The translations under genes and the position numbers were made by a program. A DNA stretch of 49,547 bases from a virus. Shown in pieces: positions 7,365 to 32,574 of this stretch (the first letter of the stretch is position 1; every line of letters begins with the position of its first letter). The stretch covers positions 1 to 49,547 of the IMG/VR virus record IMGVR_UViG_3300002137_000213, one strand, 5' to 3'. A model generated the notes under the pieces. That model searched no databases. It saw nothing but the letters and a program-made list of their open reading frames with translations, and was not told the DNA's origin.

Positions 7365-10300
7365 ATGCCCATTACCTCCGGCAAGTTGTATGACAAAGCA
7401 GCATATTGGGATGAGTTCTATGGGGATGGAAAGCCTCCTGCCCCGTTAAGCATAGACCTTCCGAGCGACAACTCGGGCAGCGATATGAACGACTTCAGCA
7501 AGGGTCTCTATGCTGGGGGCAATCAGATGCAAGCTCTCGGCAGCGGGCTAGTTGCCGCATACGGTTCGGTAACTGACAACGAGGACCTTCTTCAATCGGG
7601 CATGGAAGATTACGTCCGCAACATGAATGAGGCGAAATCCTACTCTGGCGCTGTTGTTAATTTTACAGACATTGGCTCGGCGAAAGATGCTGGAAGCTGG
7701 ATGGCGTATTCGCTAGGCACGCTGGTCCCTGATATCGCACTAATGATAGGCACAGGCGGAGTTGGTGGAGCAATAGCTAAGCAGGCAGTTACGCAGGGCG
7801 CAAAAGCATTTGCTGAAGCTCTGGCGAAACAGGGGGCGGAGGAGTTTGTTAAAGCTGGATTGGAAAAGGACGCGGCTGAATACATTGCAAAAGAGGCGGC
7901 AGCGAAAGTCATCCAAGCTAAAGCCGCAAAAGCAGCAGCAGTAACGGGGTTAGCCACCAGCGCAGTCGGCTCTGGACTTCAGGGGACAGGCGGCTCGTTT
8001 GCGGAAATCTTACAGCAGACCGGTGTTGAAGCTCCGTTTGCTGCGCTGGGTGTTGGTGTTGCTACTGGTGCGCTAGATGCCTTGCCGTTTATTAGGGTTT
8101 TTGACGGCATGTTTCCGGCAACTGCAAAGAAAGACTTTCAGGAGTTTATTGCCAGCCGTCTAGTCGACAATGCCCCGTGGAAAATACAAGCTCTCAAAGA
8201 CCTCATGGTGATCGGAGGTGCAGAGGTTGGCACCGAAGTGCTTCAAGCGCTCATTGAGCGTGACGCTATCACTTGGGTCAACAACAATTACGGCGAAGGT
8301 CCAGCGAAAGAGTACGGTCAGTTGCTAACGACAGAAGATGGTCGTCGCCAGTTGGTCAATGTGGCAGCGGTATCTTTGCTTGGCGGTACAGCGATTGCCG
8401 CGCCAACTATTGCAGCAAAGAAAGTCACAGGGCGGTACGACCGAGAAGTCAATTACGGCGACGATGCAAAGGTAGTTAGGACTGATACCGGCAGGGACCC
8501 TGAGTTTAGATCCAAGATAGAAGAGGTGCTCAATTTTTACGAGGACCCTGCCAATCAAGGCAAGACTCGGGTTGGTGACGAGGTCCAAAGTGAACGCCCT
8601 GTCGATCCCGTTACTGGCGAACTAGCCATAACATGGAATAAGGATGGCGCTCTAGACCCGAATACTAACCGTCCTTACATGCAAGAACAGACAAGCCAAG
8701 CGACAACTATAGGCGCTGACGCTTCAGAAGCCCCCGTAAATATCACGGAGGGAGCACTGCCAGCCGATCAGCAAAATTCAGCGGTCGGGGAAATACAACA
8801 ACCCCAAACTCAAGAATCATTGAGTACGGTTGTAGTGCCAGAAGCCAAGACACCATACGGTCCAGAGCATAGGTTCGACGCGCCACTCTCTGACGTTGCC
8901 ACTCCATACCAAGAGCAGCTATTACAGTTGTCTATTGTAGCGGCTACCCCAGAGGCGCAAGACCCCAGCAACCTCGACGTTGTTGTTGAGGCAATAGACC
9001 AAGATGACGTTGACAGGATATTCGATAGAAATGCGTCACTGATGATTCAAACGCCAGACCGCCCTAAAGGGAAAAGTCTGCCAACTATAGAAGAAGCGTT
9101 CGGCACTGAAGCGACCACTGTGACTAATGCGGTTGCAGGCGTCATGGCGGATCTAAGCGCTAGCGGCGTCCCCAAGCTGTTTATGGACAAGGTGACAGGG
9201 GTCTACGTTCATGATGATGCTGATGTAGAGGCACCGGCTATGACCGGTCAGCGCAGTAGGGGCGTGTCGTTTAGCCGGAGTCTTATTGGAGAGTCATTAC
9301 AGGGCGGTGACAAGCTAAGCGAGATGGCGTGGAGTATGACGCACGAAGTCTACCACGCGGCAGATTTCGACATGAACCTAAGCTCAAAGAACAAAGCTTT
9401 TGGTATGGAGATTAGTGATGAGGCTAGCGAGCCTAGCGTTGCCATGGGCGGTATCATGCGGGAGTTGTTTAACAACTGGCTTGACCAAACCCCAACAGGT
9501 AAGCGGTTCAACTATCCTTTCAATGACCTACAATCTGATATTCTGGACACGACAAAACCCAATGGCGGGCTAAATGCCAGATATCGTCAGGAGGTGTTTG
9601 CTCAGCTTGGCGCACTGTTCCACTCGAACCCTAAAGAGCTTCAAGCCGCTGCTCCATTGGCGTACAATTATATTAAGCAGGTTCGAGATGCGAATTTAAA
9701 GACAGCAAAACCCCCAGAGGTTATCAATGAAACTAGTGAAAATCCCCGCCCCGCCGACACCTCCCAACCTACAGGCATATCAGGACAAGTTCGGGCACCG
9801 CCAGTCGCCGGAAGCGACACGGGCGTACAGCCCAGATCAACTAGACCAGATGGCGAAGGAAGCGTTGTCCAAGGGCGAGCCGATACCCCTGTGGAGGGAT
9901 CGCCACAAGACACGACTGGGCAACGTCAACGACCAGATGTACAAAGATCTCCAGTAGCGGCAGAGTCGTCACGTACCGAGGTAATCCTCAAGGCTACTGA
10001 TAAGAAACCCACATTTAAGAAGGCAGATAACTGGGATGATACCGGCGAGCAGATCATCACGTTTGCCGATGGTGATCGCTACACAGTCTACTTTGACGAT
10101 GATGCGGCGGAGGCTGGCGCAGAGCAGTGGTACACCTCTGCTGACGGAACGTTTACTGGCGCTGAAGAGCTGCTGGGTCAGACCAAGGCAGAGACAATTA
10201 CTGCCTTGCAGGAACACCGCGAAAAATTATTAGCCGCCGGAAAAAATTCATACAACACCCCACTTGACCCTCAGGTAGGGAGAGAAACCTCCTTCAAAGC

Positions 10301-13300
10301 TTGGGAATTCATAAGTGATAAGGGTCAAGTAACAGAGAAGCAGTTACGCACTAAGTTCAAAGGTTTAGAAGATAACCAGTTCGACAATCTAGTTGAAGGT
10401 CTGCTGTCTGAAACAGACCCTGAAAGCGTTATCACTCTAGAAGATGGAAAGTTCCTGTCCTATGACTATGTTCAGGAGAGAGATCTAGACGGTCTTCAGT
10501 CCGACATTGATGATATGAACTTCATCAAGAAGGGCGCAGAGTATCTCCTTCAAAAGTCTAGGGGCACAGTTGGCGAGAAGAATACTCTGCCTGTAACCAA
10601 GATAACTCCCGCAACAAAAGACCCAGAGAAACAAACCCAGCGGTCAGCCGAGGTAGTGGCTAAGCACCCAGATGCACTGTCTAGTCCGGCAGCATGGCTG
10701 GCGTTTGAGCGCGACCTAACAGGAAGGTCGGAGACCCTAGCGCCTCCATACGGATTGATTAGCCTGTACAACGACATGGATTCATGGGTAAAGACCCACG
10801 CCAAATTGACACCTGAGCAGCTAAGCGCGGCGAATCGTGGACTCGCTACAGCCAAAAGAATGGGCGAGCTGTATAACTCTGGTCAAGCTACCGCTAACGC
10901 TACAGCTAAACTTCTGCTTTGGGGCTTGATGTCCAGACGACAGACAGCTTCAGGTCAGGAGGCAGGCTTTGTTGATCTAATGACAGGCAGCACTGCTGTT
11001 TCTGATTTGGCTCAAAAGGCTTTGGCTGGCGATGTGTCAGATGCGGACGTTAAGGGTTGGGTCAGGCAGGTAGGGAAGCTAATACCTGAAGGCTCCTTTG
11101 GTCGATCAGCAATCTCTAACGCCAACGATTTTGGCAGTTTGATGCAAAAGCTGGCAGACCCCTACAATGGCGGCGAGTCTAAGTTGCAGCGCATTCACGA
11201 TATTATGGCTGACAGCAGCATTCCTACGAAGGAGGTTCGCCGAGAGTTCCAAGTCATTGTTCAAGGTTCAGGCATAGACAACAAGGTCTTCTCTTTTGCT
11301 CAGTTAATGATTGGTCGAGACGATGTTGTGATCCTTGACCGCATCCAGCTCAACTCAATGTGGGACTCAACCCGTTACGGCAAAAACATTTATGATGACT
11401 TGGCAGACGAGTTCAGTGGTCTTCGCGGTTCAGCCCGTTACGAGGCTATAGAGAACTCTCTCAATACTAGACTCAAGGAGCTGTATACAAAGCTGGGCAG
11501 ACCAGAAGATGCGTCTATTGGGCGCTATCACTGGGAAAGCTGGGTCAGAGACTCTGGTCAGATTGTTGCCCACCCTACTATGCAGGGGCTTGAGAAAGAC
11601 ATTCTCGGCAAGCAGAGTCCCTATGCGTTTATTGGTGCCCCTGAAGGAAAGGGGGATATGTATCGCTCTGGTGCCGTTTATGCCCGAGACGACAAGGGCA
11701 CGCCTTACTACGTGTACCCGAAGTCCAACGGCAAGATGTATAAGTTTGAGAAGGGCGAGTTCAGGAAGTTTTTAGACGAGATACCAAAACCTAAAAATGG
11801 TATAGTTCCCAAAGACTTTAAAGTAAGTAAATTTAATAAAGGTACACCTTGGTATGAAGCCGAAAGTGTTAGCAGACAAAAACTCGACAAGCTCGTCGAT
11901 GAGTTCTCTGAAAGAGAGGCAGCTCAAAGAGAATATGCTTCTGAAAGAGCTGTTACAAGTAGTGCCCCCAATGGCTCCAGACGAGCCGAGCGAAACAGAG
12001 TCTACAAAGAGCTTCGTAGTCCCCGACTATCTGATAGCGGGCGTGGCGGAATTGAAGGAAGCATACCCAGACGCTTCAGAAGAAGACCTAGCAAACCGTC
12101 TAAAGTATTACTAGCTGGAAGCCAAGTATCAGGGTACAAGCGCGAGCTTGAGACTGATGCACGCGCAGCATTAAATTCTGTTGATAGCTACAATGGCACT
12201 GTCATTGAGCTGACCAAAAACAAAACAAACGCCAAACTATTTGCAAGCAAGATGGAAGCATCGAAGGACGCTAGCCCATATGGCGCTGCGGTCTACGTCT
12301 ATCCTGAGTCTGAATATCAGAATATGCAGATGTTCATGACCGAGGACGGGTCCGCTGGCATTGCTATCGACAACGGCGACACAATAGTTTCTCTTTATAG
12401 TGACGGGACAAACAAGAACGTAACTTACGCACTGGCTTCGCTAGCAGTAGAGGAAGGTGGGATTTATTCCGATGCGTTTGATACTGAATTGCCGCACATA
12501 TATCAGCACGTTGGCTTCAAAGTTATTTCAAGGCTCAAGTGGGATGACGCGCAAGCCCCTGCGGACTGGGACAAGAGAACATTCTTGCCTTACAACAAGG
12601 GCGAGCCTGACGTTGTTTTCATGGTTGTCGACCCTAAGTACTTCGGACCTTACACCAAAGACACAGGCTACGAGGTGGAGACATACGAAGAAGGTATGCG
12701 TTCTATTCGTGAGACCCGTAGACCTGAGCAAGAAAGAATATCCCCCAAGCTAAAGCAAGCCGTGCAGGACAGGATTGATCGCAAGATCTCTGCTGCCGAG
12801 CTTAACGATACCTTCAGAGAAGAAGGTCGTTACGTTAAGCCGATGCATCCTGACATGATAGCTCCCTTAAAGGATGATTCGCATTACGTTAGCGCCCTGA
12901 AAAGAACGAGCACAGAGCGAGACGGTCGCAGCAAAGAAAGCTATTGGATGTCGGATGCGCTGGTTGACGGTCAGAGATATGGCTCTCGTCTGGACATCCC
13001 CTCGTACTCTAGGCTTCCTATGGATGAGCGGGCGGACATTGTCACGATGCACGAATCCAGACCAAACGCGAAAGCAGGAGCGGCAGGACGCCGACTGGGC
13101 TACTACCCAACCATCAGCCTCAAAGATGTTGTTTTTGCTGTCCCAGAGAAGGGGGCTACAAAGATAGCTGTAGGTGCGGACAAGAACACCATCGCAACTA
13201 TCGAGGGCAATTACGTTGCGGCTGACCATGAGCAAAACAGGCTAGACTTTATCCGTTACATGGATGATCCGGCTTGGACTCAAATATCAATGAACCCTGA

Positions 13301-16300
13301 GCGACACTCGTTTTACTACGATCTGGCTAATCAGACCCCAGTTGTGAGTGCCACCCAGGTTGTTCAGGTCGGCAACCTAGTAATAGCCAAGGACGTTGTC
13401 TATGACGACGTTGAGAAGTTTTCCTTCATTAAGCGCAAGCAGATAAACGAAGAGACAGGAACACTTGACGACGGCACGCCATCGAACTATCAGTTTAGCT
13501 TTAATGATGAGATGGACTCTCAGGCTGACCTAGCCCGCCGATTTAGAGAAACGAAGATATACAGGTCGTTTGGCGACAGGTATCAGGCGCTTCGAGAGTT
13601 TGAAGATCAAGCTGCCGAATTCCTTGGATATGGTCGTTTGCCTGCGGGCTTGTCTCCGAGAGATCAGGAGAACCTTTCGCACGGCAGGGTTCAAAAAGAC
13701 TTAGACGAGTTTCACAAGAACCGCATAGACCCACTCGGAGAGATGATCTACAAAGCAGGGTTCGACGTGGAGGCAGTCGGCACTTATTTGCTGGCTAAGC
13801 ACGCGCCAGAAAGAAACGATTCTATAGCAGCCAAGGTCAAAGCCAATCAAGAGAAGTTGATCGCTCGCACCGAAAATGAAATTGAAAGGTTGCTCGACGA
13901 CGATGGCGTAGACCACACAGTAGCGCTGGAGACTCAGAGAGAGCTGTTGAACGGCTACAAGACAGACCCTCTGAAGTTTCAAGACACGGGGAGCGGTATG
14001 ACGTATGCCCAGTCACTAGCAATCCTAAGCATGGCTGAGCGTGAGGGCACTGCTCAGGCTATGGAGAAAATAGCAGCCAAGGTCTATGAAATGCACGACG
14101 AGAGCAGAGCGCGTATGGTAGAAGCGGAGCTGCTTGACTCGGAAACCAAAGAAGACTGGGAAGCAAACTTTAAGTACTACGTTCCTTTGAAGGGTTTCGC
14201 AGCGCAGTTTGAAAACGATGAGTATAGCGCCGGTACTGGCTCGCGAGGCTTCTCGATAGTGGGTAGCGAAAGCCTAAAAGCCAAGGGTAGAAAGACTCTG
14301 CCTGTAAACCCGCTGCTGCAATCAATAGAAGATATTCAAAAGAAAATTATTCGGGCGAGAAAAAATGAAGTCTCCCAAAAATTATTAGAGCTGCTAAGCG
14401 CACTGGGTAATGCCAAGGTGGAGGACTCGCTTGAGAGCGGTTCAATAAAGACCAAGTCTTACACGATCTACAACAACAAGTTCCGCCCGCCGATGGACAA
14501 CGATCAGTACACGATGAAGAACATCGATGATATGCGGAGGGAGGTCAGAGACTCAGGTCAGTACCCTAATGATCCTAAGTACGTCGTCGTGAAGAAAGGT
14601 GGTCAAACATTCCTGATTCACTTTAATAGCGACACGCTAAATCATTCACTTCAGAACATGAGCGTTCCAATGCTATCAAGGGCAAGCGGAGCGATGGACG
14701 TCATACTCAATGGCTTGACTAGGTTTCAGACGTTTAGGCGCAACATGCTGATCAACTACAACCCCGCATGGATGGTAACCAACCCAATCCGAGACGTTGC
14801 TACAGGGTTGATCTATGCGATGGCAGAGTCGGATAAAAAAGGATCAAGGGTCCAAGGCGAAGGAATCCTTGGCAAAACGGTACAGAACTACTTCCCGTCT
14901 ATTAGGGCGCTCTACAGGTACTACAGAGGCAAGCCGGACAGGGATGGCAACAAGATGGATCAGTACGCCCGCGAGTTCCATGAAGATGGTGCTTCGACCG
15001 GTATGGTTATGATGAAGGATAAAAAAGAGCAACTGAGGGCGCTTAATTCACAGCTCAGGAAGGGCAAGATTAAATCCATATTTAGCTACCTAGCCAAAGG
15101 GGTTGAGGACGGGAACAAAACGAGTGAAAACGCTATCAGGCTCTCAGCCTATATCGCTGCACGCAATGCAGGGACGGACAGAGAGACCGCAGCCACACTA
15201 GCAAAAGACCTGACGGTAAACTTCAACAGGAAAGGCGAAGATACGTCGACTTTTGGGGCATTGTACCTGTTCTTTAACGCAGCATTCCAAGGCAACGTTA
15301 ACTTCGTTCAGGCGATGGGTGCCGGAACCAACGCGGATGGCAGCGCAAAGGAATTTACCAAAGCAAGAATGGTCGCTACCGCGCTGGTTATGGCGGGCTT
15401 CTGGACCGCGATGCGAAACATCGATGAATCAGAAGAAGATGACGATGGCGAGCTGCGCTATAACGACCTACCTGAGCATGCCAAAAACAGAGTGCTGCTT
15501 GTCAATTATAACAGCGAAGAAGGTGCCGCAGTCCCGCTGTCCTATGGTTACAACTTCTTCACCAATCTGGGAAGACTTTCCGCTGAGTATCAGCAAGGCG
15601 TCATTGACGGGGGAGAATTCGGGTTGCATCTTTGGGACAACCTGCTGTTGAACTTCCTGCCGGTCTCCTATGACAAGGGGGACAACGTGTGGCAGGCGGC
15701 TAGAGGGTTTCTGCCTGATGCTCTGCAACTGCCAGTGGATCTCATGGTCAATAGGAACTTCTTCGGCAGTGAGATTGCTGTTGAGCAGAATGAACTGTTC
15801 ACAGAGAAGTCTACCGCCTACGCCTCCAAACGATCAACCCCAGTACTTTGGCGGAGAACAGCAGAGTTCCTCAACGACGCGACGGGTGGCGATAAGTATA
15901 AAAACGGGCTGTTGCACCTCAGTCCCGAGCGCATCGATTACATGTTTGACTATCTAATGGGAGCCGTGGGTCGAGTTGGCGTGCAGTCAATCGATGCGAT
16001 CTCGAAGATAGGTACAAACGAGACTATTGATAACAACAAGTTGCCAGTTGTTGGTGGGTTCTTTAAGAAACCTTCTGACTATGAAGATCGATTTGAGTTT
16101 TATGACAACTATATGTACATGCGTGGCGTCAAGGCTCGGCTCGAGGAAACCACCAGAGGCACTCCTGAGTTCAAGGAGCTTCAAGAAAAGTACAAGCCAG
16201 TGTCTTGGATGCTTTTAGGGTTCCACCAGCAGGCTAAGAAGGACTTGGATAAGATCCGAAAAACGAGAAAGGCTCTTGAGGATCAGGTCTACACCACGTC

Positions 16301-16418
16301 GAGAGAGTCCAAAGAAGAAACGCGCAGGACTAATCTTGAATACTTGTTGGAGCAGGAAAATAAAGTGTTTGATGCTTACAACAAGAGATTCAGAGAGTCG
16401 AGAAAGGCGATGGACTAG
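7365..16418 (+). CDS. Giant polyvalent virion protein with metallopeptidase and LPD38-like regions
   Basis: 3017 residues, about a fifth of the window; RBS AGGA 7 bases before ATG. Segments in order: Ala/Gly-rich, partly hydrophobic helices (residues ~85-340); a zincin-type metallopeptidase motif HEVYH at 660-664; a long charged linker; an alpha/beta segment ~1600-1760 containing YTYALASLAVEEGG-like and GFKVISRLKWDDAQAP strings, as in GNAT-like or ADP-ribosyltransferase-like modules of polyvalent proteins; and from ~2450 a helical region with NYNPAWMVTNPIRD and LYLFFNAAFQGNVNF, resembling the LPD38 domain of phage polyvalent proteins. Such proteins are thought to be packaged and delivered with the DNA, carrying peptidase and effector domains. 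Module boundaries are approximate. Confidence 0.75.
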   Translation: MPITSGKLYDKAAYWDEFYGDGKPPAPLSIDLPSDNSGSDMNDFSKGLYAGGNQMQALGSGLVAAYGSVTDNEDLLQSGMEDYVRNMNEAKSYSGAVVNFTDIGSAKDAGSWMAYSLGTLVPDIALMIGTGGVGGAIAKQAVTQGAKAFAEALAKQGAEEFVKAGLEKDAAEYIAKEAAAKVIQAKAAKAAAVTGLATSAVGSGLQGTGGSFAEILQQTGVEAPFAALGVGVATGALDALPFIRVFDGMFPATAKKDFQEFIASRLVDNAPWKIQALKDLMVIGGAEVGTEVLQALIERDAITWVNNNYGEGPAKEYGQLLTTEDGRRQLVNVAAVSLLGGTAIAAPTIAAKKVTGRYDREVNYGDDAKVVRTDTGRDPEFRSKIEEVLNFYEDPANQGKTRVGDEVQSERPVDPVTGELAITWNKDGALDPNTNRPYMQEQTSQATTIGADASEAPVNITEGALPADQQNSAVGEIQQPQTQESLSTVVVPEAKTPYGPEHRFDAPLSDVATPYQEQLLQLSIVAATPEAQDPSNLDVVVEAIDQDDVDRIFDRNASLMIQTPDRPKGKSLPTIEEAFGTEATTVTNAVAGVMADLSASGVPKLFMDKVTGVYVHDDADVEAPAMTGQRSRGVSFSRSLIGESLQGGDKLSEMAWSMTHEVYHAADFDMNLSSKNKAFGMEISDEASEPSVAMGGIMRELFNNWLDQTPTGKRFNYPFNDLQSDILDTTKPNGGLNARYRQEVFAQLGALFHSNPKELQAAAPLAYNYIKQVRDANLKTAKPPEVINETSENPRPADTSQPTGISGQVRAPPVAGSDTGVQPRSTRPDGEGSVVQGRADTPVEGSPQDTTGQRQRPDVQRSPVAAESSRTEVILKATDKKPTFKKADNWDDTGEQIITFADGDRYTVYFDDDAAEAGAEQWYTSADGTFTGAEELLGQTKAETITALQEHREKLLAAGKNSYNTPLDPQVGRETSFKAWEFISDKGQVTEKQLRTKFKGLEDNQFDNLVEGLLSETDPESVITLEDGKFLSYDYVQERDLDGLQSDIDDMNFIKKGAEYLLQKSRGTVGEKNTLPVTKITPATKDPEKQTQRSAEVVAKHPDALSSPAAWLAFERDLTGRSETLAPPYGLISLYNDMDSWVKTHAKLTPEQLSAANRGLATAKRMGELYNSGQATANATAKLLLWGLMSRRQTASGQEAGFVDLMTGSTAVSDLAQKALAGDVSDADVKGWVRQVGKLIPEGSFGRSAISNANDFGSLMQKLADPYNGGESKLQRIHDIMADSSIPTKEVRREFQVIVQGSGIDNKVFSFAQLMIGRDDVVILDRIQLNSMWDSTRYGKNIYDDLADEFSGLRGSARYEAIENSLNTRLKELYTKLGRPEDASIGRYHWESWVRDSGQIVAHPTMQGLEKDILGKQSPYAFIGAPEGKGDMYRSGAVYARDDKGTPYYVYPKSNGKMYKFEKGEFRKFLDEIPKPKNGIVPKDFKVSKFNKGTPWYEAESVSRQKLDKLVDEFSEREAAQREYASERAVTSSAPNGSRRAERNRVYKELRSPRLSDSGRGGIEGSIPRRFRRRPSKPSKVLLAGSQVSGYKRELETDARAALNSVDSYNGTVIELTKNKTNAKLFASKMEASKDASPYGAAVYVYPESEYQNMQMFMTEDGSAGIAIDNGDTIVSLYSDGTNKNVTYALASLAVEEGGIYSDAFDTELPHIYQHVGFKVISRLKWDDAQAPADWDKRTFLPYNKGEPDVVFMVVDPKYFGPYTKDTGYEVETYEEGMRSIRETRRPEQERISPKLKQAVQDRIDRKISAAELNDTFREEGRYVKPMHPDMIAPLKDDSHYVSALKRTSTERDGRSKESYWMSDALVDGQRYGSRLDIPSYSRLPMDERADIVTMHESRPNAKAGAAGRRLGYYPTISLKDVVFAVPEKGATKIAVGADKNTIATIEGNYVAADHEQNRLDFIRYMDDPAWTQISMNPERHSFYYDLANQTPVVSATQVVQVGNLVIAKDVVYDDVEKFSFIKRKQINEETGTLDDGTPSNYQFSFNDEMDSQADLARRFRETKIYRSFGDRYQALREFEDQAAEFLGYGRLPAGLSPRDQENLSHGRVQKDLDEFHKNRIDPLGEMIYKAGFDVEAVGTYLLAKHAPERNDSIAAKVKANQEKLIARTENEIERLLDDDGVDHTVALETQRELLNGYKTDPLKFQDTGSGMTYAQSLAILSMAEREGTAQAMEKIAAKVYEMHDESRARMVEAELLDSETKEDWEANFKYYVPLKGFAAQFENDEYSAGTGSRGFSIVGSESLKAKGRKTLPVNPLLQSIEDIQKKIIRARKNEVSQKLLELLSALGNAKVEDSLESGSIKTKSYTIYNNKFRPPMDNDQYTMKNIDDMRREVRDSGQYPNDPKYVVVKKGGQTFLIHFNSDTLNHSLQNMSVPMLSRASGAMDVILNGLTRFQTFRRNMLINYNPAWMVTNPIRDVATGLIYAMAESDKKGSRVQGEGILGKTVQNYFPSIRALYRYYRGKPDRDGNKMDQYAREFHEDGASTGMVMMKDKKEQLRALNSQLRKGKIKSIFSYLAKGVEDGNKTSENAIRLSAYIAARNAGTDRETAATLAKDLTVNFNRKGEDTSTFGALYLFFNAAFQGNVNFVQAMGAGTNADGSAKEFTKARMVATALVMAGFWTAMRNIDESEEDDDGELRYNDLPEHAKNRVLLVNYNSEEGAAVPLSYGYNFFTNLGRLSAEYQQGVIDGGEFGLHLWDNLLLNFLPVSYDKGDNVWQAARGFLPDALQLPVDLMVNRNFFGSEIAVEQNELFTEKSTAYASKRSTPVLWRRTAEFLNDATGGDKYKNGLLHLSPERIDYMFDYLMGAVGRVGVQSIDAISKIGTNETIDNNKLPVVGGFFKKPSDYEDRFEFYDNYMYMRGVKARLEETTRGTPEFKELQEKYKPVSWMLLGFHQQAKKDLDKIRKTRKALEDQVYTTSRESKEETRRTNLEYLLEQENKVFDAYNKRFRESRKAMD

Positions 16419-27076: not shown

Positions 27077-27321
27077 GCTGCCCACTCCATTCCTAGCATC
27101 TGTTTGATTTTGTACATCGACGACTTGTACTTGTTCCGCCGCAGCTTGCCGCCATCAGCTCTGTAGAAGGCGTAAGGCTTGTCCTTGCAGACGTTCTTGA
27201 TGCTGGTGTAGACGATGAACTCCTGCCCGTCGTCCTCAAGTGTTTGAAATGCGGACAGGCTGTGCGTCAAATGGATAGTTTGGCGCTGCTGCGGGTCGAG
27301 TTTGTAGATGTAGTATTTCAT
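27073..27321 (-). CDS. Small hypothetical protein
   Basis: 82 residues (RBS GGTGAG), overlapping neighbours on both sides by four bases, so part of a translationally coupled trio. It starts MKYYIYKLDP and ends with a basic segment (GGKLRRNKYKSSMYKIKQ) that could bind nucleic acid. No family recognised. Confidence 0.5.
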   Translation of the reverse strand: MKYYIYKLDPQQRQTIHLTHSLSAFQTLEDDGQEFIVYTSIKNVCKDKPYAFYRADGGKLRRNKYKSSMYKIKQMLGMEWAA

Positions 27322-27479
27322 GCGCTCACCTTCAATATGTGGAATTTCAGGACAATATCCAAGGTCTTCCCGAGCTGGATTATTTCCGCTTTGGCAAAAT
27401 CCTTGTTGACGTTTTCGTTGTCGAGCATGGTAAGGAGTACAGCCGCTAGGCTTTCGTAGGTGTTGTCTTGATCGGTCAT
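27318..27479 (-). CDS. 53-residue protein following a hammerhead motif
   Basis: Starts at ATG 27479, six bases after AGGAGG. Helical and acidic (TYESLAAVLLTMLDNEN). Its leader contains a hammerhead motif and a hairpin that encloses the RBS, so expression is probably controlled in RNA. Function unknown. Confidence 0.5.
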   Translation of the reverse strand: MTDQDNTYESLAAVLLTMLDNENVNKDFAKAEIIQLGKTLDIVLKFHILKVSA

Positions 27480-27480
27480 G

Positions 27481-27498
27481 ATTACCTCCTGCGGTAAT
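27481..27498 (-). promoter_or_regulatory. Shine-Dalgarno hairpin with GGA in the loop
   Basis: On the minus strand ATTACC (27498-27493) pairs with GGTAAT (27486-27481) around the six-base loop GCAGGA. The hairpin holds the Shine-Dalgarno sequence and has the form of a CsrA target (ANGGA in a loop over the RBS). Weaker analogues with GAGGA loops precede the genes starting at 28354, 30367, 31207 and 31492. Confidence 0.5.
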
Positions 27499-27504
27499 AG
27501 GTTT

Positions 27505-27564
27505 ACTAGGACGCCCATAGTCGGGCGTTTCGGCTGATAACCACTCAGCAGCTCATCGGCTAGC
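27505..27564 (-). ncRNA. Hammerhead ribozyme, type I, probably degenerate
   Basis: Minus strand: stem I GCTAG with CTAGT (27564-27560 and 27509-27505); core CCGATGA; stem II with loop GTGGTTA; GAAA; stem III ACGCCC/GGGCGT; then C17 with predicted cleavage between 27510 and 27509. The layout matches the second type I copy at 28382-28435. Two departures, core position U4 read as C and a two-base bulge in stem II, predict poor activity. Confidence 0.65.
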
Positions 27565-27600
27565 AAAAGCACAATTCCATGTTGCAAGGTTTGGGTAAGG

Positions 27601-27897
27601 CTAGATGACCTTGCGCACGCAATCCGCTGGCTTGGGGACTGTTTTGTCGTAATGCATAACGGCAGGCAGGTCTTCTGGTCTTACCCAAATGGTGATCATC
27701 TTGAGGTTCATCTTGTAGCGATCACCGGCTTTGGGCAGTTTGACTCTGGGCATGTAGCTCTTGTGATTGACGATGGTGGACACCGTGCGCTGGCTGGTTG
27801 CGTATTTCTTTGCCAGCTCCATCTGCCTGATATTTGTGTGCTGGTACTCATGCCGGATCATCTCGGCGGTTTTCATGGTCATGCGTTCTCGGCTCAT
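27601..27897 (-). CDS. Helix-turn-helix DNA-binding protein
   Basis: 98 residues, ATG overlapping the previous stop. EMIRHEYQHTNIRQMELAKKYATS and SQRTVSTIVNHKSY form a helix-turn-helix resembling those attached to HNH proteins and small phage regulators. The rest is basic (KLPKAGDRYKMNLKM). Likely a DNA-binding regulator; the target is unknown. Confidence 0.6.
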   Translation of the reverse strand: MSRERMTMKTAEMIRHEYQHTNIRQMELAKKYATSQRTVSTIVNHKSYMPRVKLPKAGDRYKMNLKMITIWVRPEDLPAVMHYDKTVPKPADCVRKVI

Positions 27898-28079
27898 GCT
27901 TCGTCCTCTTCGTCATCTTCGTCCTCTATTTGGGGTATTAGATTGTCCCATCCGTAAGCGATGCTCTGCTCTTCCACCCATTCGGCAGAGGTGTCGCCTA
28001 ATTCCTCGGGCGTCCATAGAATTACGGCGTAGCCTTGATCGGTTAGTTCACGCAATGCGGTTAAATGTGCGGCGTTCAT
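27894..28079 (-). CDS. Small acidic hypothetical protein
   Basis: 61 residues, overlapping both neighbours by ATGA. LRELTDQGYAVILWTPEELGD, then EWVEEQSIAYGWDNL, and a strongly acidic tail (IEDEDDEEDEA). Small phage proteins with a YAV...TPEELG motif are common but uncharacterised. Confidence 0.55.
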   Translation of the reverse strand: MNAAHLTALRELTDQGYAVILWTPEELGDTSAEWVEEQSIAYGWDNLIPQIEDEDDEEDEA

Positions 28080-28354
28080 GCTGTCACCTCCGCTTTGTAT
28101 CTAGCCAAGTCTCTCGCCGATGTTTTTATGTTGCTCTCCATTCTGTCGATCTTGTAATCAGAAAGCCCCGCAACAATTTCTCGAATTAATGTTTGGGCGC
28201 TATCCTGCGCGGCTATTTGTGCGTTGATGCCTAGTTGGGCGGAAGCGTGGTGTGAATTTTGCTCAGCCTTATATATCGCGGTTAAATCGTCGAGACTGAA
28301 CTGCCCGATAAGCCGCTGCACTGCGCCTGAAATGATTTTTCGTTTGATTTCCAT
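28076..28354 (-). CDS. Helical hypothetical protein following a hammerhead ribozyme
   Basis: 92 residues, RBS GAGGAGG in a small hairpin, with the ribozyme at 28382-28435 in its leader. Predicted mostly helical (SAQTLIREIVAGLSDYKID). First of a coupled three-gene set. Unknown function. Confidence 0.5.
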   Translation of the reverse strand: MEIKRKIISGAVQRLIGQFSLDDLTAIYKAEQNSHHASAQLGINAQIAAQDSAQTLIREIVAGLSDYKIDRMESNIKTSARDLARYKAEVTA

Positions 28355-28381
28355 TTGATTGCCTCCTCGGCGATTTGGTTA

Positions 28382-28435
28382 TCTAGGACGCCTCGCGGCG
28401 TTTCGACCGGTTACCGTCCGGTCTCGTCAGCTAGA
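28382..28435 (-). ncRNA. Hammerhead self-cleaving ribozyme, type I
   Basis: All conserved elements are present on the minus strand. Stem I TCTAG/CTAGA (28435-28431 with 28386-28382); core CTGACGA (28430-28424); stem II GACCGG/CCGGTC with loop ACGGTAA; GAAA (28404-28401); stem III ACGCC/GGCGT capped by a GCGA tetraloop; C17 at 28387. Predicted cleavage lies between 28387 and 28386. Cleavage would release the mRNA of the gene at 28354 with a short leader and leave the ribozyme on the upstream fragment. Confidence 0.88.
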
Positions 28436-28442
28436 ATTTTTC

Positions 28443-28468
28443 GGGGCGGGGAAAAAGAACCCCTCCCC
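28443..28468. repeat. G/C-rich hairpin upstream of the type I ribozyme
   Basis: GGGGCGGGG (28443-28451) faces CCCCTCCCC (28460-28468) with one mismatch and an A-rich loop. On neither strand does a T-run follow, so it is not a standard terminator. Confidence 0.5.
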
Positions 28469-28487
28469 CTATGCAACATGCTCCAAT

Positions 28488-28553
28488 AGGGAAGCACTAC
28501 AGTTACCGAGCGGACACAGCAAAGCAGCCAAGTAGTGCTGGCTGCCTTAGATG
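28488..28553 (-). pseudogene. Remnant similar to the 3' end of the ArdC-like gene
   Basis: The segment from AGGGAAGCACTAC to GGCTGCCTT parallels 29144-29205 inside the ArdC-like gene's 3' end, starting and ending with nearly identical runs and diverged in the middle with indels. The reading frame is broken. It is probably the tail of a lost duplicate. The rest of 28436-28637 shows no gene. Confidence 0.45.
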
Positions 28554-28637
28554 ACGGGGTGGGTGTTATTGCTTGGGATCGCTTTAAGTGCTAATGGTCT
28601 AAGTCTTGGCGACTCACGATCTGGCTTCGGTTAAGGT

Positions 28638-29069
28638 TTAAACGTCGCGCCACTCGCCATCAGCGTCTTTTACAACATTGACAGTGGGTTCCTGCACCTG
28701 AACCCAGCGGTTTTTTTGTTGACCATTTGCGTACCGAGAAGTCACGTCACTGTCCAGTCTCTCACCGGCTCGGTCATAGACCTCTTGGCAAAACGCGGTG
28801 CGCAGATAGGTGATTACTATGATGCCGCCTTTGCCGTAGTTCAGGCAGAACCAGCCAAGCTGAACGCCGTCACTCTTCGAGGCTATGAGGTAGTCCGCGC
28901 CGGTACAGGTCAGGGATTCGATAACCTCATCGCGACTGTCTGAGAGACTAATCACATTTTTATACGTGCCGTCGTTGACCGTAATGCAGGCGTCTCGGCT
29001 GAGTATTTCCTCGACCAAGTACTGGACGCCGACCTTGTCAGCATCCCAGTTTCCAGATTCTATTTTCAT
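28638..29069 (-). CDS. Hypothetical protein
   Basis: 143 residues, RBS AAGGAG. Beta-rich appearance (YLIASKSDGVQLGWFCLNYG, IIVITYLRTAF), with a C-terminal NRWVQVQEPTVNVVKD segment. No family recognised. It lies between the ArdC-like gene and its apparent remnant. Confidence 0.5.
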   Translation of the reverse strand: MKIESGNWDADKVGVQYLVEEILSRDACITVNDGTYKNVISLSDSRDEVIESLTCTGADYLIASKSDGVQLGWFCLNYGKGGIIVITYLRTAFCQEVYDRAGERLDSDVTSRYANGQQKNRWVQVQEPTVNVVKDADGEWRDV

Positions 29070-29109
29070 TATATAGCTCTCCTTGTGATTTTTGGTTTTA
29101 GTGTGCCAC

Positions 29110-30009
29110 TTAGGCGGCTAAAACTCTATGGCTTGCAGAGTCTAGGGAAGCACTACCGTTATCGTCTAGATACTGCACAGCAGCAGATGCCTGCTTGGCT
29201 GCCTTGACGATATGCTTAGGGTCTGACTTGAGCGACTTGAGCCACGATTTTATGTATGACTCATGCTGCAAGCCTTCGTAGGGTAAACCTAGCAACGCAC
29301 CGCCCATCGCGGCGCCTAGCTCTGCGACCAATTCCTCGAATGCGTAACCCTCAGAGCCAAAGGAGTTCAGGATCTGACGCTTGAGGCGTGAGGTGTGACC
29401 TGTCCAATGCACCATCTCATGCAGCAGGGTGGCGTCGTGGTTCGCCTCATCTTTAAAGGCATCGACTGACGGCATCTTGATGACATCCTGAGATGGGATG
29501 AAGCAGGCAGTATCACCGCCGTATTGCAGATTGATGCCAAGAGACTCAGCCAGTCGATTGACCGAGCCAGTACCGGCTGCCGGTGGGGTGTAAGTCTTGA
29601 TGCCCTGTAACCCTTCGATCTGTGCCACGTTCCAGACTGGAAAGCACTTGTTAATGAAGCCGGTCTTGGCGTCTCCGGTGGCTTTGTCCTTATAGCTAGA
29701 CCGCGCCATGAACCAGACATATTCGCACCCGCCGTTTTCGTCCTTGGATGATGGCACCTTGCCGCCTAGTGCAGTTGCCTGCTTGTAGGTCATCCAGCCA
29801 TTGCTGCCCCACTTGGCGGACGCCATGCTGAGATTTATCCAGTTGATGCCGGAGTAAGGTCGCCCCGTGCTGGCATTGTGTGGCACGCTGCCGTCGAAAA
29901 TGTGCGCCCACGGTTTGCGCCAGTCGCTGGCGTTTTCTAGGTTGGCGATGATTCGGTCAGTGACCACTTGAAACATGTCTTCATATTTGCTCATTTGTAA
30001 TTCCATCAT
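29110..30009 (-). CDS. ArdC-like antirestriction protein (ssDNA-binding + zincin)
   Basis: 299 residues from ATG 30009, chosen because GAGG lies six bases upstream; an ATG at 30117 gives a non-homologous extension. The N-terminal DUF1738-type domain shows PWAHIFDGSVPHNASTGRPYSGIN and KCFPVWNVAQIEG. The zinc metallopeptidase-like domain follows with HEMVHWTGH (H197, E198, H201) and FEELVAELGAA. ArdC of conjugative plasmids protects incoming DNA against restriction and binds ssDNA. In a phage it would shield the genome early in infection. Strong family match. Confidence 0.88.
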   Translation of the reverse strand: MMELQMSKYEDMFQVVTDRIIANLENASDWRKPWAHIFDGSVPHNASTGRPYSGINWINLSMASAKWGSNGWMTYKQATALGGKVPSSKDENGGCEYVWFMARSSYKDKATGDAKTGFINKCFPVWNVAQIEGLQGIKTYTPPAAGTGSVNRLAESLGINLQYGGDTACFIPSQDVIKMPSVDAFKDEANHDATLLHEMVHWTGHTSRLKRQILNSFGSEGYAFEELVAELGAAMGGALLGLPYEGLQHESYIKSWLKSLKSDPKHIVKAAKQASAAVQYLDDNGSASLDSASHRVLAA

Positions 30010-30079
30010 TGAATCCTCAGGTCTAAGTTGAAAAAAATGTGGCGGGAGAAACAAAACACCCCCCCAGTCCCGAATGCCC

Positions 30080-30367
30080 TCATACGTGATAACAGACCGC
30101 GTAACTGGTATATCCATGGATAGCCTTATACTGCCTGTCGAAGTGCTGACACTCTCGGGTGGGGAGCTGCTCAGCGAAATCGTTCATCCTGTCGACCAGC
30201 TTCGACTCTGCCCGCTCATGCCGCTCGCGCAGTCGCGCACCGTTGGCGCTGTGCTCGTCTTCGGTGTCCCATACTCGCTGGTGTGTCTCGAGCAGATCGC
30301 TGTAGCGGCGATCCAAGTTATAGAGCTGCTGGAATCGCTTGGTGTACTTCTCATGTAGTGCTTGCAT
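30080..30367 (-). CDS. Coiled-coil hypothetical protein
   Basis: 95 residues, RBS GAGGAGG. Charged helices with YTKRFQQLYNLDRRYSDLLE and GARLRERHERAESKLVD suggest a coiled coil. A terminator separates it from the preceding gene. Function unknown. Confidence 0.5.
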   Translation of the reverse strand: MQALHEKYTKRFQQLYNLDRRYSDLLETHQRVWDTEDEHSANGARLRERHERAESKLVDRMNDFAEQLPTRECQHFDRQYKAIHGYTSYAVCYHV

Positions 30368-30400
30368 GGTTGCCTCCTCGGCGGTTGAATAAATACAATA

Positions 30401-30423
30401 AAAGCCACTCGGTGAGTGGCTTT
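30401..30423 (-). terminator. Rho-independent terminator
   Basis: AAAGCCACTC and GAGTGGCTTT form a perfect 10-bp stem with a three-base loop. On the minus strand the stem is followed by TATTGTATTTATT. It ends or attenuates transcription of the upstream small-gene group before the 30367 gene. Confidence 0.75.
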
Positions 30424-30434
30424 GATGTGCTTAC

Positions 30435-30716
30435 TCAGTGAAAGCTGCGGTGATTCTTGATTGACCACTTCTCGATCACTGGCTGCCCATAGTCATCCGC
30501 GTCAACGACGATATAGGCGACCGTCTTTTTGACGTTGGCATACCGCCACCCAGAGTCATGCAGTGGTTTGAGCTGAACCCATACCCTGTGAGGGTAGTTG
30601 ACTACCGGCAGCCAGCTATCGGCAGGGCTGTTCGGCTCATACTCGAAGTCGTTGCCATTGCTGAGCTGGAAGCTGCCTACCAGTCGCTGCATAACATCCC
30701 ACGGTGCCAGACTCAT
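30435..30716 (-). CDS. Hypothetical protein
   Basis: 93 residues, start overlapping the preceding stop. Aromatic and beta-rich (YPHRVWVQLKPLHDSGWRYA, VAYIVVDADDYG). Followed by the terminator at 30401. Not recognised. Confidence 0.5.
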   Translation of the reverse strand: MSLAPWDVMQRLVGSFQLSNGNDFEYEPNSPADSWLPVVNYPHRVWVQLKPLHDSGWRYANVKKTVAYIVVDADDYGQPVIEKWSIKNHRSFH

Positions 30717-30880
30717 AATGTCCCCCTAGTGATCGCGATGATCGCCATGGACATCAGGAAGGTGCACGCGATGACGATGCCGAATGACATTACCGTTACG
30801 GTTGCATATATGACTTTCTCAGTGCGGTTCTCAGTGCGGTTCATAGTGCCAACTCCCTTGACTTCAACAGTGATTTGCAT
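30713..30880 (-). CDS. Small membrane protein with a duplicated N-terminal leader
   Basis: 55 residues from 30880 (GGAGG upstream), or 43 residues from the internal ATG at 30844, which has its own GGAG. The end is one hydrophobic segment (IYATVTVMSFGIVIACTFLM). The first codons (MQITVEVK) and the internal GGAGTTGGCACTATG copy the start and the end of the gene at 31028-31207. The gene therefore seems to carry a collapsed duplicate of that gene in front of a membrane peptide. Confidence 0.5.
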   Translation of the reverse strand: MQITVEVKGVGTMNRTENRTEKVIYATVTVMSFGIVIACTFLMSMAIIAITRGTL

Positions 30881-31031
30881 GGTTGCCTCCTTGAAAGCTG
30901 CGCTGATTCTTCAAAGTCAATTCAACAGCTTCTATAGCGGCTTCGACCTGAGCGCAGTCCATGTCGTTGCACTTCATGAAGTCAAGGCTGTAAAGCAAAG
31001 CGCCCAGCACATCCTGCTCGTAGCGGCTCAT
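30864..31031 (-). CDS. Small hypothetical protein
   Basis: 55 residues, ATG overlapping the previous stop and preceded by GGAG. MSRYEQDVLGALLYSLDFMK, then CNDMDCAQVEAAIEAVEL: helical and acidic with two cysteines. Its 3' end overlaps the next gene's start and RBS by 17 bases. Confidence 0.45.
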   Translation of the reverse strand: MSRYEQDVLGALLYSLDFMKCNDMDCAQVEAAIEAVELTLKNQRSFQGGNHANHC

Positions 31032-31207
31032 AGTGCCAACTCCTTTGACTTCTGGGTGAAGGTGTAGCCCAGTTGCTTCATCAGCGCTCGGGTCTGGTCG
31101 GTCAGTGTTTTGGTGCCAGCAATGCGGGCGAAAGTGTCACCGACGTGACAGGTTGGGTAGACGTTGATAACGCCGTAGACATTTTTTACTTCGACAGTGA
31201 TTTGCAT
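31028..31207 (-). CDS. Small hypothetical protein
   Basis: 59 residues from ATG 31207 (GAGGAGG upstream). MQITVEVKNVYGVINVYP is a beta hairpin-like start, followed by a helix (LTDQTRALMKQLGY). Preceded by a GCGCC/GGCGC hairpin at about 31232-31250. Function unknown; its leader and first codons are duplicated at 30880. Confidence 0.5.
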   Translation of the reverse strand: MQITVEVKNVYGVINVYPTCHVGDTFARIAGTKTLTDQTRALMKQLGYTFTQKSKELAL

Positions 31208-31261
31208 GGGTGCCTCCTCAGGCGGGTTGTTAAGCGCCCTCATTGAAGGCGCAATTAGTGC

Positions 31262-31492
31262 TTACCATCCGCAGACTTCTGATTTCTGCTCTGCTTTTAG
31301 ATCTCGGTATTCGTCCATTTCTTTTTTGACTTCATTCCAAGGCATCAGTCCAGACTTGCCCTCGAATTCCGAGTAGTGAATAAAGTCATTCCATTCAGCG
31401 CCCCCAAAACACTCGACAAAAATGTCCATTCCTTTGTCGTAATTTGCTTCGGCGTAGGCTTTTGCTTTATCGATAATCTGCTGTGCGTTCAT
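31262..31492 (-). CDS. Hypothetical protein following the type III hammerhead
   Basis: 76 residues, RBS GAGGAGG inside a GCCT/AGGC mini-hairpin. Acidic and helical (IDKAKAYAEANYDKGMDIFVE is split by a turn), then WNDFIHYSEFEG. First coding gene of the leftward accessory operon; the ribozyme at 31509-31560 lies in its leader. Unknown function. Confidence 0.55.
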   Translation of the reverse strand: MNAQQIIDKAKAYAEANYDKGMDIFVECFGGAEWNDFIHYSEFEGKSGLMPWNEVKKEMDEYRDLKAEQKSEVCGW

Positions 31493-31508
31493 GGTGCCTC
31501 CTCAGGCT

Positions 31509-31560
31509 AGTGTTTCGATCTGGCTGATCTCATCAGTGCGCCATATAAGACGCAGACACT
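31509..31560 (-). ncRNA. Hammerhead self-cleaving ribozyme, type III
   Basis: Minus strand order: AGTGT (31560-31556) then C17 (31555); stem I TGCGTC/GGCGCA with loop TTATAT; core CTGATGA (31536-31530); stem II GATC/GATC with loop AGCCA; GAAA (31516-31513); and ACACT overlapping it (31513-31509) to close stem III with AGTGT. Predicted cleavage lies between 31555 and 31554. All core bases match the hammerhead consensus. It sits 17 bases upstream of the 31492 start and near the 5' end of the operon transcript. Confidence 0.88.
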
Positions 31561-31638
31561 TGAATGGGTCTTGCCGCTTCACCCGTCGCATCTGCTCTAT
31601 CACAGTCTCTCGGGGTGCCCCTAGCCCTCTAGGTCGGA

Positions 31639-31774: not shown

Positions 31775-32053
31775 TTGGATGCGGACGTGGATATAGACCG
31801 GCGGCTTGACAGAATGGAAGCGAAGCTTGACGCGGTCGGCGAGACGCTTCAGCACTTGGCGAGAATCGACGAGCGGCTCACTGGCGGTCATAAGCGCATC
31901 GATGGGCACGACCATAGGCTAGACGCATTAGAGGTTCAGGTGCGGCTAGTAGATAAGCAGATGGCACAGAACGCAGGGCGCGGCATGGTGGTAGAGCGTG
32001 CGGCTTGGGTAGTGTTCGCGGCGATAGTCACCGCAGTGTCGAAATTTTTCTGA
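31775..32053 (+). CDS. XhlA-like small membrane protein
   Basis: 92 residues from a TTG start (AAGGGCGG upstream). Coiled-coil N-terminus (RRLDRMEAKLDAVGETLQHL, DHRLDALEVQVRL) and a C-terminal hydrophobic segment (AAWVVFAAIVTAV). This layout is that of XhlA/hemolysin-type proteins and other lysis-associated phage membrane proteins. It precedes the terminase and overlaps its start. A lysis role is plausible, not proven. Confidence 0.5.
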   Translation: MDADVDIDRRLDRMEAKLDAVGETLQHLARIDERLTGGHKRIDGHDHRLDALEVQVRLVDKQMAQNAGRGMVVERAAWVVFAAIVTAVSKFF

Positions 32054-32574
32054 TGCGGGAAAAACCCAACTCCCCCCCAACTCCGGCGCCATCACAGGAA
32101 GTAGATCAAATGCTAGTAGAGAGAGACACAGTAAGGGGAGACAACACCGATCAGGTTAAGCCTCTCAATCTACGTCAGCAGAAGTTCGTCGAGAACTATC
32201 TAACATCAGGCAATGCAACCAGATCAGCAGAGGCAGCAGGGTATAAACACCCAAACGTCCAAGCTTTCAGGCTGTTAGACAATATTAGTGTAAAGGCAGG
32301 CATTGACACCAAAAGGGCGAAAATGAGCAGAGATACTGAGGGTAGAAGGGAACGCTGGATCGAGCGGCTGGAGACACTCGGCGAGGATGCAGTTAGAGAT
32401 GCTGACCGGCTGAGAGCCATTGAGCAGCTATTCAAGGCAGAAGGCTGGATTGCACCCGAACGAAAGGAGGTTGTCCAGTTTTCTGGGGCTTTCCTCGCTG
32501 ATCTAGACCTTGATGAGCTAGAAGGCGGCTCTTTTGACGACACAATACTCAATGAAAACAACACGTTACAGTAG
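32053..32574 (+). CDS. terS: Terminase small subunit
   Basis: 173 residues from ATG 32053, overlapping the previous stop. LNLRQQKFVENYLTSGNATRSAEAAGYKHPNVQAF is the helix-turn-helix of the Terminase_2 family, which recognises the packaging site. It is followed by a helical oligomerisation segment (WIERLETLGEDAVRDADRLR) and an acidic tail. It is separated from the large subunit by about 1.8 kb of lysis-type and HNH genes, an unusual spacing. Confidence 0.85.
   Translation: MREKPNSPPTPAPSQEVDQMLVERDTVRGDNTDQVKPLNLRQQKFVENYLTSGNATRSAEAAGYKHPNVQAFRLLDNISVKAGIDTKRAKMSRDTEGRRERWIERLETLGEDAVRDADRLRAIEQLFKAEGWIAPERKEVVQFSGAFLADLDLDELEGGSFDDTILNENNTLQ

Follow-up and report, generated by a model that had tools for sequence, protein, structure and literature searches.

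Why would a phage place self-cleaving ribozymes directly in front of the ribosome-binding sites of its accessory genes? The question is raised by IMG/VR virus record IMGVR_UViG_3300002137_000213, a stretch of 49,547 bases (called the window below, always at its full length) whose genes include those for an integrase, a recombinase, a primase/helicase, a terminase and a portal protein. Three hammerhead ribozyme (HHR) motifs lie in a leftward cluster of small genes around an ArdC-like antirestriction gene, and the original prediction proposed that these divide one polycistronic mRNA into segments. By sequence, structure and covariation, the three motifs are natural HHRs. The arrangement in which they occur, an HHR followed by a short leader and a hairpin bearing the Shine-Dalgarno (SD) sequence, appears reasonably likely to be a natural insulated expression unit, with the cutting, the insulation and any effects on mRNA stability in this phage deduced from sequence and from analogy.

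Each motif has three helices around the core, the A15.1-U16.1 pair and GUC as the NUH cleavage triplet, and all three lie on the minus strand. Motif 1 (31507 to 31562) is of type III, with a perfect CUGAUGA/GAAA core and a predicted cut at 31555/31554. Motif 2 (28381 to 28436) is of type I and also has a perfect core, CUGACGA/GAAA, with a predicted cut at 28387/28386; an ACC downstream is able to pair with GGU in loop II. Motif 3 (27504 to 27565), likewise of type I, has the core CCGAUGA, which differs at position 4 (U4C), and a predicted cut at 27510/27509. The genes that follow were placed correctly, with starts at 31492, 28354 and 27479 and a strong SD sequence at each.

Several approaches (Rfam, structural descriptors and a leave-out covariance model) agree with the earlier claim of three HHRs on the coding strand, each ahead of a ribosome-binding site; together they span 4.06 kb. 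Rfam family RF00008 (Hammerhead_3) matches 31562-31507 (minus strand) with 36.7 bits and an E value of 2e-4, and RF00163 (Hammerhead_1) matches 28436-28381 (minus strand) with 32.9 bits and the same E value, both slightly below the curated cut-off; motif 3 was not reported by the Rfam search of the window. A strict three-helix descriptor, applied to both strands of the window, finds motifs 1 and 2 with their perfect cores and nothing else. When C or U is allowed at core position 4, together with a short bulge in stem II, the relaxed descriptor finds exactly three, including 27565-27504. The descriptors found no further HHR on either strand, in agreement with the claim that the other intergenic gaps have none.

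Could such motifs arise by chance? When the window was simulated 200 times with a first-order Markov model, the relaxed descriptor gave 0.005 matches on average. Because the descriptor was relaxed once motif 3 had been seen, an independent test is provided by the leave-out model, a type I covariance model built from 20 sequences of relatives, with the window motifs, identical copies and the other U4C example excluded. This model recovers 28436-28373 at an E value of 1.8e-21 and 27565-27496 at 8.9e-19 (over 112 kb), with no significant match besides motifs 2 and 3. A chance origin of the three motifs is rejected by the simulations and the leave-out model together. Unconstrained RNA folding gives the hammerhead junction as the minimum-energy fold for all three, and the fold energies are modestly under those of shuffles (z -0.7 to -1.8). 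The extra C before GAAA in motif 3 was considered as an insertion and rejected: stem II of this motif has a CU bulge, like its sister copies, which carry a stem II bulge of 0-3 nt, and C11.1 pairs with G10.1.

Has the ribozyme structure been maintained by selection? Protein and pattern searches yielded about 95 related viral loci. An alignment of 34 type I sequences (A1) has two-sided changes at 16 of 18 pairs, and 98% of its cells pair, a figure that is inflated since the rows were chosen partly by pairing. A covariation test on all 18 pairs of A1 is therefore partly circular, and was superseded by one on pairs outside the search pattern, which for that reason are the fair test. These comprise the fifth pair of stem I and the pseudoknot between loop II and the tail; pairing reaches 97.8%, each of the four pairs has two-sided changes, and none of 500 shuffles is equally good. 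The pseudoknot pairings covary in type I (GGU/ACC, AGU/ACU, GGG/CCC and GAAU/AUUC), and provide the stem I-stem II tertiary contact found for this type, between loop II and the downstream tail. A further set of 48 distinct matches was drawn with a pattern that left the interior of stems II and III free to pair or not. Stem III pairs 2-4 are formed in 34 of 34 of these outside one marine subgroup, versus 8% in shuffles; the subgroup has a mismatch within these pairs, followed by a longer helix. At least four further pairs extend stem II in 75% of the 48 matches, again versus 8% in shuffles. Type III homologues at the equivalent place in relatives have compensatory changes in stems I and II, in few sequences.

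A non-standard core occurs in 9 of 68 distinct model matches, and four of the nine have U3-A8 in place of C3-G8 (L002:4350, L031:3038, L020:6644 and 7830 (minus)), a change that keeps the core base pair and gives a variant known to be active. In L017 and L034, A6 of the HHR is followed by an insertion. The U4C change of motif 3 recurs in L014:8555.

These patterns bear on two alternatives. First, the HHRs might simply hitchhike with recombining gene modules, conferring no benefit at the RNA level and spreading through shared homology at module borders. HHR modules do come and go, and ardC tail sequence is duplicated ahead of motif 2 (see below), as this explanation would have it. Nevertheless, it is difficult to see how hitchhiking could produce compensatory changes in the stems, the pseudoknot and the C3-G8 core pair across widely differing sequences, or a nearly fixed HHR place before the SD sequence, and we regard it as improbable. 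Second, some protein or metabolite might gate the ribozymes as switches. Allosteric control was raised as possible by Perreault et al. 2011 (PMC3088659), but most copies have short loops with no aptamer-like domain appended, and contacts like the conserved pseudoknot are described as critical for activity at high speed. Conditional cleavage seems very improbable.

The ribozymes are common in the related contigs. Type I HHRs occur in 26 of the 27 records that were searched whole, and a type III copy is also present in ten of the records. The window has two type I copies, L002 has four, L006, L009 and L022 have six, L024, L035 and L038 have seven each, and the most in a single 11-kb contig is nine, in L014. 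The nine HHRs of L014 lie at junctions among 12 small genes within 4.2 kb, and at all nine the ribozyme occupies the gap between the stop codon and the SD sequence; the TAG stop codon of the upstream gene is often part of the CTAG of stem I. Beyond this group, AT-rich marine viral contigs (L066, L077, L084, L090, L095 and others) have two or three type I HHRs each, of other sequence and again placed 35-39 nt ahead of start codons, and a type II hammerhead stands ahead of an open reading frame (ORF) at L013:11810, on an unrelated contig.

How constrained is the stretch between ribozyme and gene? Among the 47 type I cases in which a start was found, 45 have the predicted cut 27-38 nt ahead of the start codon, and for type III the distance is 62-70 nt in six of six; in the AT-rich marine contigs with HHRs it is mostly 35-40 nt. 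Downstream of the cut, relatives have a small SD hairpin, NNCCU-GAGG-AGGNN, whose outer pairs covary. RNA folding predicts such hairpins on the minus strand before all three window genes: GCCU-GAGG-AGGC at 31496 to 31507, before gene 31492, which corresponds to the covarying hairpin in relatives; GCC-GAGGA-GGC at 28361 to 28371, before gene 28354; and AUUACC-GCAGGA-GGUAAU at 27481 to 27498, before gene 27479. The SD hairpin is also found at junctions without an HHR.

HHR cleavage leaves a 2',3'-cyclic phosphate on the upstream product and a 5'-OH on the downstream product. In the view of the original prediction, the cuts chiefly set differing half-lives for the pieces. With such ends, the 5'-OH would evade decay that depends on a 5'-monophosphate, or else invite a 5'-3' exonuclease, and 3'-5' decay would be slowed by the fold at the 3' end. 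A precedent is glmS, whose 5'-OH product is degraded by RNase J1, and the transcript level rises about twofold with the engineered RiboJ element (see below). Stability alone, however, needs neither a constrained cut-to-start distance nor a constrained SD hairpin, and as the chief function it strikes us as rather unlikely.

Comparison of close relatives reveals gain and loss of the units. L002, which is 99% identical to the window, has about 890 bp extra, with two HHR+ORF modules beside a 22-bp repeat; at this place (29156 to 29177) the window has a single copy of the 22-bp sequence. The window has no HHR at the junction ahead of ardC (30010 to 30066, minus strand), where L015, a close relative, carries one of type I, directly in front of the gene. 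HHRs stand on both sides of ardC in L014 and L035. Homologues of gene 28354 retain the HHR in L008 and L020; the L020 ribozyme has a U3-A8 core, and its stem I differs.

Some of the flanking sequence also has a history. A remnant of an ardC 3' end, GTAGTGCTTCCCTATTGGAG, stands ahead of motif 2 at window positions 28475-28505 (minus strand), and because the window's own ardC ends differently, a past module swap is indicated. The conserved upstream block GCGGCATAGGGGTG...CCCCGCC was considered as part of a mobile cassette; this was rejected, as several relatives have it as an ardC 3' end plus a G/C hairpin. Hairpins of the form GGGG..TTTTT..CCCCGCC recur after genes in the window (30043-30066, 28445-28470 and about 32020-32090, minus strand). 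Such hairpins, with a G-run, a T-rich loop and a C-run, are often followed by AAAAATT and in relatives stand after several different genes, with or without an HHR.

The favoured explanation is that the HHRs would act in cis on the mRNA of the leftward accessory genes, cutting it ahead of a start codon at a distance of about 30 nt for type I and 62-70 nt for type III. The gene or gene block behind each cut would then begin with a similar leader and a 5'-OH end; in type I, the leader would be CUAG-AUAACC followed by the small hairpin bearing the SD sequence. On the upstream piece, the folded ribozyme would form the end and bear the 2',3'-cyclic phosphate. The fixed spacing, the hairpin at the SD sequence and the coming and going of whole modules all point to independence from the upstream neighbour, and the main benefit is probably insulation of gene expression: a gene that is inserted, lost or swapped would retain its own 5' leader and translation start regardless of the sequence upstream. 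A secondary effect may be that the stability of these pieces is altered.

Could the pieces instead be closed into circles? Segments between two type I HHRs would carry 5'-OH and 2',3'-cyclic phosphate ends able to re-pair, and might be joined by the reverse reaction of the ribozyme or by RtcB. The 877-nt piece 28386-27510 would begin CUAGAUAACC, with which the free stem I strand CUAG and the loop II sequence GGUUAU of the terminal ribozyme can pair. Adjacent HHRs in L014 and L035, however, often differ in stem I and so could not re-pair, and Perreault et al. sought circular or spliced products and found none (PMC3088659). We give closure into circles hardly any weight.

Several observations weigh against insulation by cutting. 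An HHR stands at just three gene junctions of the window, the others having the SD hairpin alone. The core change in motif 3 is expected to slow cleavage; U4C is described as strongly lowering activity in vitro, yet as sufficient in a viroid (PMC3088659, discussion). A hairpin resembling an intrinsic terminator lies between motifs 1 and 2 (30401 to 30423, minus strand), with an SD hairpin within 35 nt, so that a single transcript over all sites is not assured. The inflated pairing of alignment A1 (see above) belongs here too. Finally, the 5'-OH product of glmS cleavage decays rapidly in Bacillus subtilis, through RNase J1, a precedent by which cutting could destabilise the phage mRNA instead. 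The terminator-like hairpin leaves little room for a promoter before the SD hairpin, and sequences like it, at about 90% identity, are found in L020, L025 (two copies) and L031.

How does this array relate to known systems? Control of a phage operon by ribozyme cutting had been put forward as possibly undescribed, but the idea is already in the work of Perreault et al. 2011 (PMC3088659), who found HHRs in clusters around prophage genes or short blocks of genes, and proposed that phage transcripts are cut to operon- or gene-length mRNAs. Their arrays cleave in vitro, and the triple array around ardA of Agrobacterium tumefaciens cleaves in vivo in E. coli. The likeness to the ardA array is close: several coding-strand HHRs packed into a few kb among phage accessory genes, an antirestriction gene, and proposed cutting of a polycistronic mRNA. 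With at least two same-strand HHRs over such a distance among accessory genes, the window has the layout of the clustered phage HHR arrays. The differences are that the present phage is of another lineage, that ardC takes the place of ardA, and that a relative has up to nine HHRs in 4.2 kb; a near-constant 30-nt leader and a conserved SD hairpin are not mentioned in the portions of that paper cited here. No report of denser phage HHR arrays was found in the open-licence literature searched. Segmentation of the mRNA ahead of ribosome-binding sites gains from real HHRs in the right orientation and place, which recur in relatives at a near-constant cut-to-start distance, but loses its claim to novelty; what is new, within the literature searched, is how densely the HHRs are placed, together with the SD hairpin and the fixed leader.

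The closest likeness in design is to RiboJ, an engineered sTRSV hammerhead followed by a 23-nt hairpin and placed before the ribosome-binding site (Clifton et al. 2018, PMC6206723; PMC8794103). RiboJ removes the upstream leader, and it raises protein level two- to tenfold and transcript about twofold (PMC6206723; PMC8794103). In both cases an HHR and then a hairpin precede the coding region, and the cut would leave a fixed leader. RiboJ, however, is engineered and of plant satellite RNA origin, and its hairpin is upstream of the ribosome-binding site, whereas the phage hairpin contains the SD sequence. The phage units may thus work like a RiboJ-type insulator, which they resemble without being members of RiboJ. 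The glmS ribozyme is likewise a self-cleaving RNA in the 5' untranslated region of a bacterial mRNA, but it is of another class, depends on a metabolite and lowers expression, and no aptamer is seen in the phage HHRs. Retrozymes and viroid-like circular RNAs with HHRs share the ribozyme motif; here, in contrast, the HHRs precede ORFs in the operon of a double-stranded DNA phage, with no sign of a replicating or circular RNA.

The accessory genes themselves are small. The gene after motif 1 (31262 to 31492, minus strand, as are all those given here) encodes 76 aa with no assigned family and one weak PHROG match of unknown function. The genes after motif 2 (28076 to 28354; 92 aa, with homologues in L008 and L020 likewise preceded by an HHR) and motif 3 (27318 to 27479; 53 aa) are also of unknown function. 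Between motifs 1 and 2 lies the ArdC-like gene (29110 to 30009), which matches PHROG 7245 (E 3e-59) and the Pfam domains ArdcN and MPTase-PolyVal. The ORF starting at 30880 is a partial duplication whose opening, MQITVEVK, resembles that of the gene at 31207, and short direct repeats are found at 31188-31218/30861-30891 and 31023-31052/30836-30865. Elsewhere in the window, an ORF of 3017 aa (7365-16418, plus strand) is very large for a 50-kb phage.

Portal proteins from phages such as Pelagibacter phage HTVC033P and Roseobacter phage CRP-9 share 31-36% identity with that of the window. The single terminase relative, on a short contig within a Flavobacteriales metagenome-assembled genome, is too weak for naming a host. 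The operon DNA has no match among cultured phages. The top matches of L014 to cultured phages are short, weak and in Staphylococcus phages, and the one of these that was retrieved has no HHR at the L014-matching place; nor was one found in the retrieved parts of HTVC033P and MW202796. None of the present stem I type was found across 84,980 prokaryote genomes.

A 2017 review (PMC6155905) named the role of hammerhead ribozymes in prokaryotes as an open question. In the present phage family, as many as nine HHRs stand at successive junctions, at a fixed distance from the start codon and each combined with an SD hairpin, which suggests a concrete role that experiments can address, a uniform mRNA start for each movable gene. 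Perhaps, though we advance this more tentatively than the unit itself, the lineage uses one standard unit (an HHR, a fixed leader of about 30 nt and an SD sequence within a hairpin) for nearly all accessory genes, which would let genes be exchanged freely and still keep their 5' ends uniform. If this is true, the phages would hold a natural equivalent of a part in wide use in synthetic biology, with ribozyme insulation extended across a whole operon.

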